A DNA stretch of 64,000 bases from Brachionus manjavacas (Eukaryota > Rotifera > Eurotatoria > Ploima > Brachionidae), in the NCBI GenBank assembly GCA_019054805.1, contig JAHQIY010000001.1, positions 6,090,501 through 6,154,500 on the forward strand, written 5' to 3'. Shown one piece after another: positions 1-10,486 of the stretch. How positions within the stretch are numbered: the stretch's first letter is position 1; each line of letters begins with the position of its first letter. The notes under the pieces are model-generated. The model was given only the letters and a program-made list of their open reading frames with translations. It had not been told where the DNA came from and did no database searches. The position numbers were made by a program, and so were the translations under genes.

Positions 1-574
1 GTTTGAAATGCTGTCAGTATCAGAATCGGTTAAAAGATCAGAGATTTTTTTAAAATAGGCCAAGCAGACAAAAGTTCTCTTATTGTGCTTTTAAAAGCAA
101 GAAAAGATGCAAGAATACCAATATTGACTTACTTATTGTTAGTCTTACCCCTTTAAAAGCTTATTTAAATTTTATTTTTTAGTAAATTTTTTTTCCTATT
201 TTTATCTATATTTTTTTGTTTTAAGTAGCCTTTCTGTGGCGTTTTTTATTCGAATTTAACAAAAATAAATACCTCTCAATCAAAGCTTTTTCATTTTTTT
301 AGATTTAATTAAATTTAAAATCCTTTTAATTAAAAATGAAATTTTTTTGTTCAAATATTCACTTTATTAATCCATTTTTATTTTAAAGTAAATGTTGATA
401 ATTTTAATTAAAAATTTAAACTATTGAAATTTAAACACAATTTAATTCAGTATTTGAATTTTAAGGAAAAAAATATGCGCCTGCGAAAAAAATAATATAA
501 ATAGATTTATTTCAACAAAAAAAATGCTAGCATTCCATTTCGATTTTAAAATAACTCTTCTAAAAAAATATTGT
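1..574. other. AT-rich intergenic stretch
   Basis: Homopolymer-rich A/T sequence on both strands. I see no open frame with protein-like composition, no RNA gene and no clear transposon motif. It ends at the outer edge of the TIR element that begins near 575. Confidence 0.6.
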
Positions 575-685
575 CATATTTACCGTAAAATATGGTAATC
601 TAAAAAGGGGTATTTTTCGTAAAATACCGATAATTATAATTATTGTAAAATTCAGTGAAAAAAAAAATTTCCAAAATTTTGGAAA

Positions 686-1277
686 AGCTAAGGAATTGTA
701 TTAATAACATTATTTTGTGGTGGTGAAGTTTGGAGCAAAAGCTGTGGCAAAAATAGTTAGATTGAATCCCAGTTTTATTTAAATTATAGGCAATTATTTT
801 AAAGATTACTGTTTAACAATTTTAAATGAAATTTGTTTTTTTGAATTTTTTGAATTTTTTTCTCGCATTATAAAACTTTTTTTTTTTTTAAGTTTCTAAA
901 ATATTTCTTTAATTCTTTTTTGCTCCAAACTGCTATTTTTATCATTTAATCTAGTTACCTCAGTGAAATTTGAAGATACCATTTTGTCTATTGGTGATGC
1001 AGTTGAGAAACTTAGTGTGTAAGAAGACTTATTTGTTGATAATGTCTAGTAAAATGGAGTAGATTCAACTTCTGTCAGATGATTTGAAGTAAATTGAGAA
1101 TTCATTGTTGAATCTGTGATTAAAAAGCTATTTGATATTGAAAAATTGGTACTTTCCAAGCAATGCACATCTGAACCAACATTTAGCGAAAAATATAATT
1201 CCTGATTTGTAATTTTCCAAAAATTGACTTCTCCTTTTTCGTGTCCCGAGGCTATTATTAAAGGGCTGAAAACGTCT
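686..1277 (-). pseudogene. Inverted partial copy of the propeller/EGF gene, intron included
   Basis: This segment is about 99% identical to the reverse complement of 2444-3036; by eye only about three differences appear (one T-run length change and two substitutions). It holds the 3' part of exon 1 (here about 959-1277), the whole 272 bp intron, and two bases of exon 2. Because the intron is retained, the copy arose at DNA level and not through mRNA. It has no start and no EGF or TM part, so it should not encode a working protein. If transcribed on the plus strand it would be antisense to the parent gene. Confidence 0.85.
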
Positions 1278-1278
1278 G

Positions 1279-1316
1279 AAAAAAAAAATTTCCAAAATTT
1301 TGGAAATTTTTTTTTT
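1279..1316. repeat. Perfect 38 bp palindrome at element junction
   Basis: Ten A, the 18 bp core TTTCCAAAATTTTGGAAA, then ten T form a perfect palindrome with no spacer. The left arm of the element carries the same A-run and core (658-685) but is cut off before the T-run, exactly where the captured gene sequence starts. Confidence 0.85.
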
Positions 1317-1454
1317 ACTGAATTTTACAATAATTATCGGTATTTTACGAAAAATACCCCTTTTTAGATTACCATATTTTACGGTAAATATGGTAAAATA
1401 TCGTGAATTTACCATAATTTACGTAATATATGGTGAATTTACGTAATCTATGGT

Positions 1455-1535
1455 GAACCGTTTTTACACAATTAGAAAAAAAATTATAGCGTTTTTACTT
1501 TTTGTACTGTAATTTTTGTACTAATATTTCACATT
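1455..1535 (+). repeat. Dispersed repeat copy (shared with 56597-56676)
   Basis: The blocks ACACAATTAGAAAAAAA, TTTTGTACTGTAATTTTTGT and ACTAATATTTCAC recur in the same order, slightly diverged, at 56597-56676 inside scribble intron 1. A shorter match is at 55111-55154. Probably a small non-autonomous element family. Confidence 0.6.
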
Positions 1536-1685
1536 GCCAAATCCACTATGTATAGCAAATTAAAACTATGCTTTAAATTACAAAATGAGAATTAAGATTT
1601 TGGACTACTGAATTTTTTTCTCATTTTTATTTTTTTATTCAGATTTTTGAAATTTAAATAAAAAAAATCATTAAATTATAAAGAA

Positions 1686-4054
1686 ATGCTTTTAGAAATT
1701 TTTTTTGGTGTAATTTTTATTGAAGGAAATTTGGCCTTTCAGTTTGCAGTTGGCTTGAATGACAAAACTGAAATTAGAACAAACAATACTTTGAATTCGT
1801 TTTATTCATCGCAAGATATTGTTCAGTCACTTGTTTTTGATATTGAAAACAATCTCTTAATGGGAGGGGATAAGAAAAAGAATATATTTAAGGTATCGAT
1901 TGATGGATCAATTTATAGGCAAAAAACAATGGCAAAAGACTGCTCTGAATCTGTTATTTCGATCAACAAAACTCATTTAGTAGCTGGATGTGATAAGTCG
2001 ATAATTTTTTTTAATAAATCTGATTTGAATGAGTATCATGAAGTCCTTAGCGACGATTTTGGTAATGTCAAAAGTATGAGAGTACTTAGAAATGAAAAAA
2101 TGCTCTTAATAGGTTCAGATCAAGGAGATATAACTATATTTAATTTAGAAAATCAGAAACACCTGAAAAATGACAATGTTGCAAACAAAATATTGGATAT
2201 TGATGCTTTGGATAGAGATTTTGTGGTATCCCAGTGTAATCAAAAGTGTGTGTGCAGTTTTGAAGTAAATAATACTAATCATCTTGTAGAAAAGAAAAAA
2301 CTCGACTTTGACCAAGAAATAAAAGTAATCAAAATAATAAACAAAGATCAGGTGGTTTTTGGTGGAGAAATTTTTTTATATTTATGGATTTTGCAGAACA
2401 GCTCTAAATTTAGCTTCGACGCGAAGGAAAAAGTTTGGGGCTTAGACGTTTTCAGCCCTTTAATAATAGCCTCGGGACACGAAAAAGGAGAAGTCAATTT
2501 TTGGAAAATTACAAATCAGGAATTATATTTTTCGCTAAATGTTGGTTCAGATGTGCATTGCTTGGAAAGTACCAATTTTTCAATATCAAATAGCTTTTTA
2601 ATCACAGATTCAACAATGAATTCTAAATTTACTTCAAATCATCTGACAGAAGTTGAATCTACTCCATTTTACCAGACATTATCAACAAATAAGTCTTCTT
2701 ACCCACTAAGTTTCTCAACTGCATCACCAATAGACAAAATGGTATCTTCAAATTTCACTGAGGTAACTAGATTAAATGAAAAAAATAGCAGTTTGGAGCA
2801 AAAAAGAATTAAAGAAATATTTTAGAAACTTAAAAAAAAAAAAAGTTTTATAATGCGAGAAAAAAATTCAAAAAATTCAAAAAAACAAATTTCATCTAAA
2901 ATTGTTAAACAGTAATCTTTAAAATAATTACCTATAATTTAAATAAAACTGGGATTCAATCTAACTATTTTTTGCCACAGCTTTTGCTCCAAACTTCACC
3001 ACCACAAAATAATGTTATTAATACAATTCCTTAGCTGAGTTATGGACCAACAACAAAACATTCAACTGAAAAATCGGAAATAACTTCAGAGAGATTTTTA
3101 TTTTTAAATTCAGAAGAGAATCAGAAAAATTTTCCAAGCACTTCATTAAAGACTGAAAATAGCGAAGAAAACCAAACAAAATTTATTAATAATTCTACAA
3201 ATACAAATGGTGTATCAATAGCTAATTTTTTGAATGAAATAACCACTAGTGATTTGTTTCAAAAGAAAGATCATAATTATAACAATACTGAAAAAGTTTC
3301 TTCTGGAATGCCAAATTACAGTTCTTCCCATAAAAAAGAACAAACTTTAAATCAAGATTTTAATTCTGCTAAAAGTTCAGCGGAAACAAATTCAACTATT
3401 CCAACTGTATCAAACTTTTTTTCAACAAATCAAGATTCGGTGGAGCATACTTTCTCAGAGTATTATCTAAATACAGAGGAACTAATTAGTTATTTGTCTC
3501 ATAAATTTGATTTAAACGACTGCTTAATGAACTGCTCGGGAAATGGAATGTGCAAGTTCATTCAAAATAGAAAATTTATTTGCGAATGCTTCGAGAATTT
3601 TCTTGGTTCCAATTGTCAAATAAATACTCTTCCTTGTGCATCGAACCCTTGCTTGAACAATGGAACGTGCTTTAACAATTTGGAAAATGGAACATTTACT
3701 TGCGAGTGTGATACTCAAAACAACCAATTGAGCCTGTACTATGGGAAAAACTGCGAGAATAAAATTGATGTTTGTTCAAATGAAACATGTTCAAAGCAGG
3801 GTGTTTGTTATGATATTGATGGTATGGCTAAGTGCAAATGTTTTCCTTGGTATTCTGGAGAAAACTGTCAAATAGAATCAAACGAAATGATGATGAGAAA
3901 AGTTGTGATCAAGACCTCCACAATTATAGCGATTATGGTCATAGTTTCGTTCTTTGTCTTGTTTTTGGCTTGTGATCTACTAAGTGTATTCTTTACACAA
4001 AAGAAGAAAACATGTAAAAAATACAAAACAGAAAAATTAATTTACGTGAATTAA
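1686..4054 (+). CDS. Beta-propeller (WD-like) / EGF single-pass membrane protein, two exons
   Basis: Proposed join 1686..2762, 3035..4054 (698 aa). The donor (GAG^GTAACT) and acceptor (CCTTAG^CTG) are both in phase 0, and the exon 2 frame is open back to the acceptor. Exon 1 starts with a hydrophobic stretch (possible weak signal peptide), then WD-like strands such as LLIGSDQGDITIFNL and IIASGHEKGEVNFWKI at about residues 50-300. A Ser/Thr/Asn-rich linker with many N-glycosylation sites follows. Exon 2 ends with three EGF-like modules with six-Cys spacing, a TM helix (about 650-675) and a short Lys-rich tail. This is probably a cell-surface glycoprotein; the ligand is unknown. An in-frame stop lies just upstream of the ATG at 1686, although an acceptor-like site near 1642 could add a 5' UTR exon. 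Part of the gene is copied in inverted form upstream. Confidence 0.75.
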
Positions 4055-4806
4055 AAACTTGTGAATTTAAATGGGAAATGTTTTATGACAGAATTCCTAA
4101 GTATAGACCTATTTTAGAATTTTTTTAAAATGTATTCTTTCTTATAGAAGTCAAAGTAAAAAAAATATTAAAATTTATAATATTGCTTATTTATTTTACA
4201 TTCCTTGACTCAGTTGCAACAAAACTGGAAAAATCTAATTTTTTAATTAAAAAATTTTAAAATTCATATAGGTCGCTTATTATGTTCAGTTTTAGACTTA
4301 TCTTTGTTTACATTAAATTGTTCTAATAAAAATTTCTAAAAGCATTAAACAAAAGGAAAAAAGAAAATTTGATTTTTGAAAATTATTGCGATTATTTAAT
4401 TAATGAAGAATCCGATTGAAACAAAATTTGTATTTATTTAGAGAAAAATAATAGCAAAAGATTTGAAAATTATTTAAAGACAAAGAATTAAAAATTCATT
4501 AAATTTTTTAAAACTTAAAGAAAAGAAAGTATCGAATTTTTTTAATTTCTTTTTTAAACGATATTTTTTTGAAACTCCCGCATTTTTCAATGTCATTTAA
4601 AATTTGATTAAAAAGCAGATTTTGCATTGTTAAAAAATTTTATATTTCAATCGGAAAATTTTTATCAATAACTCTTATTTTTTTATTTGTTTTAAAAATA
4701 TAATCAACTTTATTATTTATTATACAATTATTTAAACTCGGACTTAATTTAACACAAAATTTTACATTTTAAAAAACTTAAAAAGTTTCAATCTTCTGTT
4801 TTTTTC
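4055..4806. other. AT-rich 3' flank, no gene seen
   Basis: Downstream of the EGF gene. A possible polyadenylation signal AATAAA is at 4325-4330 on the plus strand. Otherwise only A/T-rich sequence; no frame or repeat unit stands out. Confidence 0.45.
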
Positions 4807-7699: not shown

Positions 7700-7848
7700 A
7701 TTAAATAATCATTTTTCTTTTTTTTTAATTAATCAGTCCGCAATTAAGATTCTGAATAATTCTTGTTTGGAAACCCAGACTTTGAATCAGGACGAATTAT
7801 TACATTCTCTTAAATTTTTATTTATTTGAATTAAAATTATTTATTTTA

Positions 7849-9672
7849 TTAAGCATTTTCAAAAAGTTTGACCAGTTCATATGTAAAAACAGATATCATT
7901 TTTATATCCACACACTCTTTGCTAGTTAAAGATTTGTAAAAGAATTCAGGCGAGAACATTTTTAATTCATACATTTGAAATAATATTCCGCCATTTAAAG
8001 GCTTCAAAATTTCGAACAGACTCAAAATACCATGTTCATGAAACCATGTATTGACTTTCTCTTCATCCCAATCTTTAGGTCCAGTTGAATTATTGATCAA
8101 TAATAGCTCGGGTTGTTGTGCGATCACGCTATTGCTTTTATTAAAATACAAATTAATTTGATTTTTTAAGCGCTTAAGCGATTCTTCAAATTTGTATTTT
8201 GTAAAATCAACAAAAATCTTATCTCCTATGATTATTCCAAGCCATCCACTTACATTATGATATCCGGGCTGCATTATCAACGGTACTATAGTCTTATTTA
8301 GCCTAAAAGCATACTGGGCTTCAGCTTGACAATTTATACTTTGGCGATATTTTTCACTAACACACATCAAAATAATTGATGAATTTTCGATAGCTTTTGC
8401 CATTGAGTCCAAACTGCTTCCGTGGATTTCATTTACATCTATCCATATTTTAAATCCTGCTTGTTCCAGCTCAGTTTTTATCTTAAGGCACATTTCTCTT
8501 GAAGCAGTATTATAGGATATCATTATGTGCAAGCCATGTTGATCAATTGTTTCCATTTTTGGCTCGGATTTTGACAAAAGCCAAATAAAATCCGAACTAA
8601 TAATTTTCAATTTTTTAAACTCGAAACTAGCTGAATTTAATTCTTTTAAGAATTCAAATAATTCTTTATCTTTGCCAATTTCTTTTTTGATTTTCTCATT
8701 AAAAGACAATTGTGTTAATAGCTTTATTGCATAGAATTTTTCCACTTCATTTCCATCATACACTAAAAATTTGACACTTTCGGCCAAATCCTGATAGAAA
8801 AATATTTTTCCTCTGAACTTATCATTGATGGAATATCCGTATAAAGTATTTAAATAATAATCTATCAAATAGACAAAGCCATTGTTGCCACTAATTGTTC
8901 TAATGCTTGCATTGATGCTTTCGGACTGATCATGGAATTGTTTTGAATACAAGCAGATAGGCTCACGGATGCACTCAATTGTTAAGGGGATGAATTGGGA
9001 TAATATTTGGTCAAGTTCGTTCATACTTTCCATCTCCTGATCCGAGGCTATCAAGGCTATTATTGCGTAGGCCACAAAATTCCATTTCGGAATTGATCTG
9101 GCGAAATTTAGGACTATTTTAGTCGAGTCCAAAGACAACCAGTTATGCTTGTACTCATTGGAACTTTCGCTTAAATAATAGAGTGTGTTTATAAAACCAT
9201 CGAAATGTGATTGATAAGTTGTGAATGCGGAGATAAATTCAATGTCATTTAAAAAAATCATAAAAGTTTTTAGATGATCAACATTTTCATTAAAATAGCA
9301 CCGGGCTTCTGTTGAATAAAGAAACGTTGTGTTCAAAAAAAAGTTTAAATCTTTTAAAAAGTGAAGTATTTTTTCGCTACGGTTAAAATCGGGATCATAG
9401 TAGTCAATTGGTTTAGTGCATGATTGGAAATCTATTGTTGATCGTATCGAACAAATGTGTTGGAGTAATGCGGAAAAAAATTCGTAAATTTTTGTTTTGC
9501 TCACTAATTGAATGTATTTTTGATTATCTAAGACAATTTGATAGCAATGGAATAAAAATTCGGAAAAATTTTCACCATTTTCTAATAAGCTATCAAAATT
9601 TTGAAGCGATTTTAGGTAGTTTACGTAAGCCTCAACATCATTTGAATCAAATTTATCAGAAATGTCGCTCAT
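7849..9672 (-). CDS. TIR-domain protein with helical N-terminus and SAM-like C-terminus
   Basis: An intronless 607 aa frame. Residues 1-370 are helical and repeat-like (ARM/HEAT-type is my inference). Residues about 380-505 form a TIR domain: LHIMISYNTASREMCLKIK (strand A/box 1 region), FKIWIDVNEIHGSSLDSM, then SSIILMCVSEKYRQSINCQ. Residues 532-605 (DWDEEKVNTWFHEHGILSLF onward) look like a SAM-type helical bundle. Glu451 in the C-Q-A-E motif sits where catalytic TIR NADases such as SARM1 have their glutamate. SARM1 has ARM-SAM-SAM-TIR order, so this ARM-TIR-SAM order differs. A role in NAD-linked immune or stress signalling is inferred, not shown. The minus-strand stop overlaps an AATAAA hexamer (7845-7850). 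Confidence 0.85.
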   Translation of the reverse strand: MSDISDKFDSNDVEAYVNYLKSLQNFDSLLENGENFSEFLFHCYQIVLDNQKYIQLVSKTKIYEFFSALLQHICSIRSTIDFQSCTKPIDYYDPDFNRSEKILHFLKDLNFFLNTTFLYSTEARCYFNENVDHLKTFMIFLNDIEFISAFTTYQSHFDGFINTLYYLSESSNEYKHNWLSLDSTKIVLNFARSIPKWNFVAYAIIALIASDQEMESMNELDQILSQFIPLTIECIREPICLYSKQFHDQSESINASIRTISGNNGFVYLIDYYLNTLYGYSINDKFRGKIFFYQDLAESVKFLVYDGNEVEKFYAIKLLTQLSFNEKIKKEIGKDKELFEFLKELNSASFEFKKLKIISSDFIWLLSKSEPKMETIDQHGLHIMISYNTASREMCLKIKTELEQAGFKIWIDVNEIHGSSLDSMAKAIENSSIILMCVSEKYRQSINCQAEAQYAFRLNKTIVPLIMQPGYHNVSGWLGIIIGDKIFVDFTKYKFEESLKRLKNQINLYFNKSNSVIAQQPELLLINNSTGPKDWDEEKVNTWFHEHGILSLFEILKPLNGGILFQMYELKMFSPEFFYKSLTSKECVDIKMISVFTYELVKLFENA

Positions 9673-10486
9673 TTTTTCATAAATAATAAATTTTTTATTT
9701 GAATTTATTTTTCATTTTTAAAATTTATTTACTCGATTTTTACAGCTTCAATTGGAAATAAATTTAAATGCTTAAAAAAATGTAATCATGGTAACTTGTT
9801 GAGAAATTTTCGGAATTTTCAATAAAAATTTCAGCGTCTTTTTTTTTAATTATTAAATTCAGAGTAACATAATTGCATAAAATAGATATAAATATGCTAA
9901 ATATCAGAGTTGTTTAAAAGTAACAAGTCTCAAGTCAAGTCAAAGTCCGAATTTTTTTTTTTTAAAGTCCGAGTCAAAGACTTTTATTTTTTTTCACGAT
10001 GAATATAATGACTAGATAAAATTTTTTAAGTATTTTAAAATAATAAATTGTCTAATCTTGATGACTCGACATTCCGAGATTCCAAAGTCAATTTTTTATC
10101 CTGTTTTAAAAATTGTTCAAAAAAATGTTCCTGTTTTTCCATGTAGAGTAATTATTCAGGAACGGAAGATCACGATCAGGATGATATTTTTGCGGCCCAG
10201 GTGGTTATTATGGAAGCCAAGCGAGTGTTGGGCTTTTTTTTTTTTTTTTAAATTTAAAGGTCTTTGACTTCCCAGTCACAACCAAAATATAGTTTCATCG
10301 AGGAATTAGCGAAGTTCATTGAAAAATCATCAAATAGATGAGACAATTGAATCCCCAATCAGAAGTCATATTTTTGTTAGATACTAACAAAATATTAAAA
10401 AAATAGGGGGAGTCACTATTTGAACCTTGCATGAACTTTGAATCTATGTTTGAGTAATATTTAGAAAGCATATATGCTTTAAAAAC

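Follow-up and report, generated by a model that had tools for sequence, protein, structure and literature searches.

Inverted copy of a neighbouring gene segment, intron included, inside a truncated TIR element of Brachionus manjavacas: a probable one-off repair patch

The inspection of a 64,000 nt stretch of the genome of the rotifer Brachionus manjavacas (GenBank assembly GCA_019054805.1, contig JAHQIY010000001.1, positions 6,090,501–6,154,500 of the forward strand; hereafter the window, numbered from its first nucleotide) revealed a segment of a gene lying in inverted orientation between the arms of a truncated TIR element, upstream of the gene itself (Table 1). The data support a DNA-level capture of a piece of the neighbouring gene within the TIR element. 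The captured piece is probably a one-off repair patch, made in place beside its donor, a known kind of accident rather than the work of a gene-collecting transposon.

Table 1. Features of the captured gene segment, the TIR element that holds it and the donor gene (window positions)
Feature	Position	Strand	Basis or remarks
Left arm of truncated TIR element, outer part missing	575..685	+	
30-nt direct duplication, first copy; spans the palindromic arm-arm joint TTTCCAAAATTTTGGAAA	656..685	+	
Captured copy of 2444-3036 (end of exon 1, complete intron, first 2 nt of the second exon), with one premature stop	686..1277	-	
Second copy of 30-nt direct duplication; base 1277 shared with donor	1277..1306	+	
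Right arm core	1289..1392	-	
Right-arm outer part, still family-like, terminal ~21 nt missing	1393..1439	-	Match to family member L045
Exon 1 of donor gene, from ATG at 1686	1686..2762	+	Weak WD40-like matches below Pfam cut-off
Source of the captured copy (donor segment)	2444..3036	+	Self-comparison, genome search
Phase-0 intron, 272 nt	2763..3034	+	GT at 2763, AG at 3033-3034
Second exon of donor gene	3035..4054	+	EGF-like domains; membrane-spanning stretch judged by eye

Self-comparison of the window showed the 592 nt inverted copy to be the reverse complement of the 593 nt donor segment, as stated in the original prediction (a note made from the nucleotide sequence alone); the two differ by six substitutions and one 1-nt gap, which corresponds to 99% identity over 592/593 nt. 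They lie 1,166 nt apart, and the high identity suggests that the copy is recent, in agreement with the recent event next to the donor that had been proposed. The donor segment begins inside exon 1, spans the whole intron and includes the first 2 nt of the next exon; this end point, 2 nt beyond the 3′ splice site (3034-3036), is probably due to chance. The inverted copy keeps the full 272-nt intron. In its exon part, the three differences from the donor all fall at first codon positions and all are nonsynonymous, one of them creating a stop. Since all three alter the protein, the inverted copy looks like a decaying, derived relic. A search of the 114-Mb assembly, in which 40 of 85 candidate places were scored, found a full-length match at two of these places, the copy and the donor. 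The donor segment was the unique best match among the scored candidates, and its 99% identity over 592/593 nt lies within the limits that Tan et al. (2021; PMC8277862) set for the source of a Pack-TIR (at least 90% identity, length ratio 80–120%). The 38 further places in this set matched the intron part alone (73–85%), at the site of a dispersed repeat.

The joined exons of the donor gene are in frame and encode 699 codons, with a sole stop at the end; in the Pfam analysis only the EGF-like domains exceeded the cut-off. The intron holds a MITE-like repeat (within 2791–3011), whose ends, read by eye, resemble GCGGCGGTGAAGTTTGGAGCAAAA; the 3′ part of the intron (about 2885–3011) belongs to this dispersed repeat. 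This repeat sits inside the copied intron, and the flanks of the donor segment are in-frame exon. A protein search with exon 1 identified, besides the gene and its captured copy, six further loci with 27–35% identity, one of them with a stop (C31:75960-76985, C31:89870-90883, C1:6162301-6163152, C8:205563-206549, C10:903008-903724 and C8:169910-170407); judging from these similarities, the relatives form a small dispersed gene family. Elsewhere in the window, a 620-codon open frame on the minus strand (7849–9711) contains a TIR signalling domain (Pfam PF13676, E 1.1e-21).

The original prediction placed the copy between two inverted repeats of ~110 bp. Such arms are indeed present, with 94% identity over 111 columns (seven gap positions, no substitutions); they are, however, internal portions of longer inverted repeats and not the ends of the element. 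The family termini (TA followed by CAGTGCTGCTACGATACC...) are missing: neither the window nor the 1,500 nt preceding the element contain one at up to seven edits. On the left, the outer part of the arm is absent; this part is commonly 68 nt long, and 28–38 nt in some siblings. The right arm matches the family to within ~21 nt of its end: positions 1381–1439 are 98% identical to positions 1973–2031 of family member L045, an element that ends at 2052.

The inner ends of the arms hold a scar. A motif at the inner end of the arm was found in 86 of the 102 arms of 51 other family members; it is followed by CTCG in 67 cases, by other letters in 19, and by TGG in none. Both arms of the window element depart from the family at the same base and continue with TGG; they are thus joined over a 6-nt self-complementary overlap, AAATTT. 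The 24-nt joint (AAATTT plus flanking bases) was found at a single place in the genome, the window, when up to one mismatch was allowed; an older palindromic subfamily carrying this joint was considered and rejected on the basis of that search. The insert is flanked on either side by identical copies of a 30-nt block (TGAAAAAAAAAATTTCCAAAATTTTGGAAA) that spans the joint; this perfect direct duplication at the junctions was absent from the original prediction. With the insert taken out and the flanks joined, the centre is palindromic and pairs perfectly over 19 bp, up to the first indel. Relative to its siblings the window copy lacks the element core (a central deletion). The overlap with the donor is 1 nt at one junction and 0 nt at the other.

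The arms of the window element recur elsewhere in the genome, a point that the original prediction had singled out for checking. A 36-nt core of the arm was detected at 210 places, and the family terminus (TA, then CAGTGCTGCTACGATACCTTGAATTCA) 335 times, in both cases at up to three mismatches and with no match for the reversed control sequence. The 335 termini imply a family of roughly 165 elements. Sixty other loci were fetched, comprising 51 delimited elements and nine loci where just a single arm or end was recognised. The comparison of the 51 elements left out L051, L054, L055, L056, L058, L059, L061, L063 and L064, as well as a partial entry (L048 1577–2701) that is covered in full by L072. 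The 51 elements range from 430 to 3247 nt (median 1061), with paired TIRs of 35–886 nt (median 226). They contain 97 recognised termini, with both present in 47 elements, and TA precedes 92 of the 97. The family thus shows the TA target-site duplication of Tc1/mariner-like MITEs, the window copy's own ends being gone. It is a TA-targeting, long-TIR and apparently non-autonomous family.

When the 51 elements were compared with one another and with the window copy, most interiors proved to be family sequence common to more than three members. Leaving aside the window copy and L078 (an end effect), low coverage was seen for the interiors of L031, L045, L047, L048, L050, L069, L076 and L085, of which L085 is not an inverted pair. 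All six atypical interiors searched genome-wide (L076, L048, L069, L050, L056 and L059) turned out to be dispersed repeats. A piece of the L076 interior was found at 20 other places (96–100% over at least 547 of 631 nt), and one from L048 at 15 (87–96% over at least 230 nt). The L050 piece has two other copies at 96–98% and ten at 69–75%. The L069 interior consists of two different dispersed repeats, and its last ~130 nt matched only itself among the 40 of 174 candidates scored. By eye, the inserts of L076, L069 and L050, which terminate in ACT- or TAA-type repeats, resemble the 3′ ends of LINE-type retroelements. In L056 and L059, a dispersed repeat (877 and 405 nt, respectively) separates two family stretches. 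L051 is a single 1,093-nt stretch of continuous family sequence, and L054, L055, L058, L061, L063 and L064 contain one family stretch each (183–508 nt). A host-gene fragment could be shown in none of the 60 loci, 10 of which are only partly characterised (six one-armed loci and the interiors of L031, L045, L047 and L085, which lay outside the genome-wide search), in a family of an implied ~165 elements. Neither several members with different host-gene interiors nor one such member that had spread was observed among these 60 loci.

One sibling, L047 (1248–4494), is a 3.2-kb family member with an open frame whose SWIM-like zinc finger falls just below the Pfam cut-off, a further frame that by eye resembles a LINE tail, and a third terminus at 7713. 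An identical 12-nt flank at all three termini makes L047 part of a larger inverted arrangement. This member is a possible lead to the family's mobilising protein.

The loss of the core, the hexamer joint, the duplication that contains this joint, and an insert taken from the opposite strand ~1.2 kb away fit break repair or template switching at a replication fork. The events probably started with a copy of this TA-targeting, long-TIR, apparently non-autonomous element located 5′ of the gene. A break or a stalled fork in the middle of the inverted repeat would have removed the core, and the two single-stranded arm ends, identical and each terminating in AAATTT, would have annealed to generate the palindromic joint. 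Either then or during a subsequent round of repair, DNA synthesis would have passed through the joint, switched to the gene ~1.2 kb away and, once 593 nt had been copied on the opposite strand, returned to the arm 30 nt earlier, leaving the inverted gene piece between two copies of the 30-nt block. The captured fragment has since accumulated changes and is most likely without function. As a variant of this repair explanation, the 30-nt duplication could derive from a staggered break filled in around the inserted fragment. Against a repair patch count the short microhomology at the junctions (1 nt and 0 nt) and the possibility that the AAATTT joint arose earlier, in an event of its own.

The original prediction likened the locus to Pack-type capture. 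In a true capture of that type, an active element would have acquired the gene piece while transposing and afterwards have landed, or stayed, beside the donor. The size of the family (335 terminus matches), the TA that precedes 92 of its 97 recognised termini, and the position of the insert between family arms speak for it. However, both termini are gone from the window copy, its joint was found nowhere else, the donor is only 1,166 nt away, and the insert was listed once besides the donor among the 40 of 85 candidates scored. As no sibling read (60 loci, 10 only partly characterised) shows a gene fragment, and the six atypical interiors searched are repeats, a Pack-type amplifying family was not kept as the leading reading; a true Pack-type capture at this locus is unlikely. 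A still less plausible sequence of events is an older inverted duplication of the gene into which the element was inserted later. Inverted neighbouring duplicates do occur, but here the copy ends exactly at the element interior on both sides, and no gene-derived inverted repeat was listed outside the arms within positions 1–4500, so this order of events is extremely improbable.

Alternatively, an unspliced or antisense transcript would have been retroposed into the element, the 30-nt repeat then being the target-site duplication. This would account for the flanking duplication, and inserts resembling LINE tails by eye do sit in sibling elements. Yet no poly(A) or microsatellite tail belongs to the insert at either end, in contrast to the ACT- or TAA-type endings of the LINE-like inserts of L076, L069 and L050; the A-run seen after the insert belongs to the family arm, and the donor is adjacent. 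Retroposition is thus very unlikely. The retained intron had been taken to rule it out altogether; this holds for a spliced retrocopy, which the absent tail also disfavours, while retroposition of unspliced RNA is compatible with an intron-bearing copy. As for an assembly artefact (a fold-back read or a mis-joined contig), adjacent inverted copies are a known artefact shape. The copy and the donor nevertheless differ at seven sites, one of which creates a stop, and the transposon arms and 30-nt duplication that border the inverted segment are not what a fold-back read should yield; there is very little likelihood of such an artefact.

The locus preserves a clear and recent trace of how TIR elements in animal-type genomes come to hold gene fragments, with the palindromic joint and the 30-nt duplication as records of steps in the probable repair. 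The inverted gene copy upstream of its source is also a candidate locus for the natural origin of a hairpin RNA. RNA pairing between copy and donor was predicted to involve 586 bp (about -935 kcal/mol), and the model therefore makes dsRNA against the donor gene physically possible. The region upstream holds no long open frame: among frames of at least 50 aa, only two (57 and 56 aa) were found in the 1,620 nt that run from the start of L001 into the left arm. It is conceivable, as a long shot, that palindromic MITEs are break-prone sites at which inverted pieces of neighbouring genes are written, and that the window locus is a nascent self-targeting hairpin. If that were true, and if transcription started upstream of position 575, the pre-mRNA would form a duplex of ~590 bp that could give rise to siRNAs against the gene. 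Such an arrangement would resemble hpRNA and inverted-duplication siRNA loci, to the extent that the available descriptions of these allow comparison, in that an inverted gene duplicate could pair with the gene's transcript. It would differ from hpRNA loci in that the spacer contains the gene's own first exon.

Among published systems, the plant Pack-MULE and Pack-TYPE elements, as presented in the accessible part of one report (PMC8903248), carry gene fragments between TIRs as the window element does; repeated capture or spread of gene fragments was not seen among the 60 family loci, 10 of them only partly characterised. Gene-fragment capture of this kind had been thought rarely described in animals. 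It is less rare than that: the available text of Tan et al. (2021; PMC8277862) reports 370 Pack-TIRs, mostly single-copy, in 55 of 100 animal genomes (no literature under the term ‘Pack-TIR’ was found beyond that paper). According to the same text, 160 of 281 unique Pack-TIRs lie within 15 kb of their source, 67.6% show microhomology at one or both breakpoints (median 2 bp), the gap is small (median 4.6% of element size), single-copy cases are ascribed mostly to transposition-independent gap filling, and antisense transcription is mentioned in two human cases. The window case is similar in having single-copy non-TE sequence within a TIR element, a nearby source, interior breakpoints and little microhomology, and TcMariner elements are among the common hosts of Pack-TIRs (PMC8277862). 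It differs by the loss of its termini, by a palindromic joint in place of the core, and by the 30-nt duplication on either side of the insert; the absence of the whole core, compared with the small gaps of Tan et al., counts against a repair patch. The Tan pipeline, as far as its text was available, requires a match of at least 10 bp to the consensus terminus in each TIR; since the termini are gone, the window element is not a Pack-TIR by the letter of that pipeline (PMC8277862). The pipeline also sets aside intronless retrocopies, whereas the window copy retains its whole intron, and inserts whose parental copy has a TE within 100 bp; here the donor segment is flanked by in-frame exon and has the MITE-like repeat within its intron.

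The window locus also has the features of the repair-mediated duplications of Pace et al. (2009; PMC2671141), as defined in the available part of that study: a donor at 1,166 nt, a central deletion, a 30-nt duplication and no tail. The definition calls for a TE interrupted by a copy of DNA from no more than 5 kb away, for microhomology, deletion, filler or target-site duplication at the breakpoints, and for the absence of poly(A). That part describes 824 closely linked duplications in human, of up to 619 bp; among 39 examined breakpoints whose donor lay within 5 kb, a poly(A) tail was never present (0/39) and target-site duplications, of 4–21 nt in the table, were seen at six. One exon, of ACSBG2, was copied in the opposite orientation (PMC2671141). 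As in these cases, a TE in the window is interrupted by a copy of similar size from within 5 kb, with no poly(A), and the flanking target-site duplications of some of them resemble the 30-nt duplication found here. The window locus departs from them in the length of this duplication (30 nt versus 4–21 nt, which counts against a repair patch), in its missing core, and in belonging to a rotifer rather than to a surveyed vertebrate (PMC2671141). The rule of Pace et al. that the two TE halves lie no more than 30 bp apart on the consensus would exclude the window element when typical siblings (median 1,061 nt) are taken as the reference, its core being missing, and would include it if the resident element already had a short palindromic form. 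With these differences, and within what the available parts of both papers describe, the window case works like both the Pack-TIRs of Tan et al. (PMC8277862) and the duplications of Pace et al. (PMC2671141).
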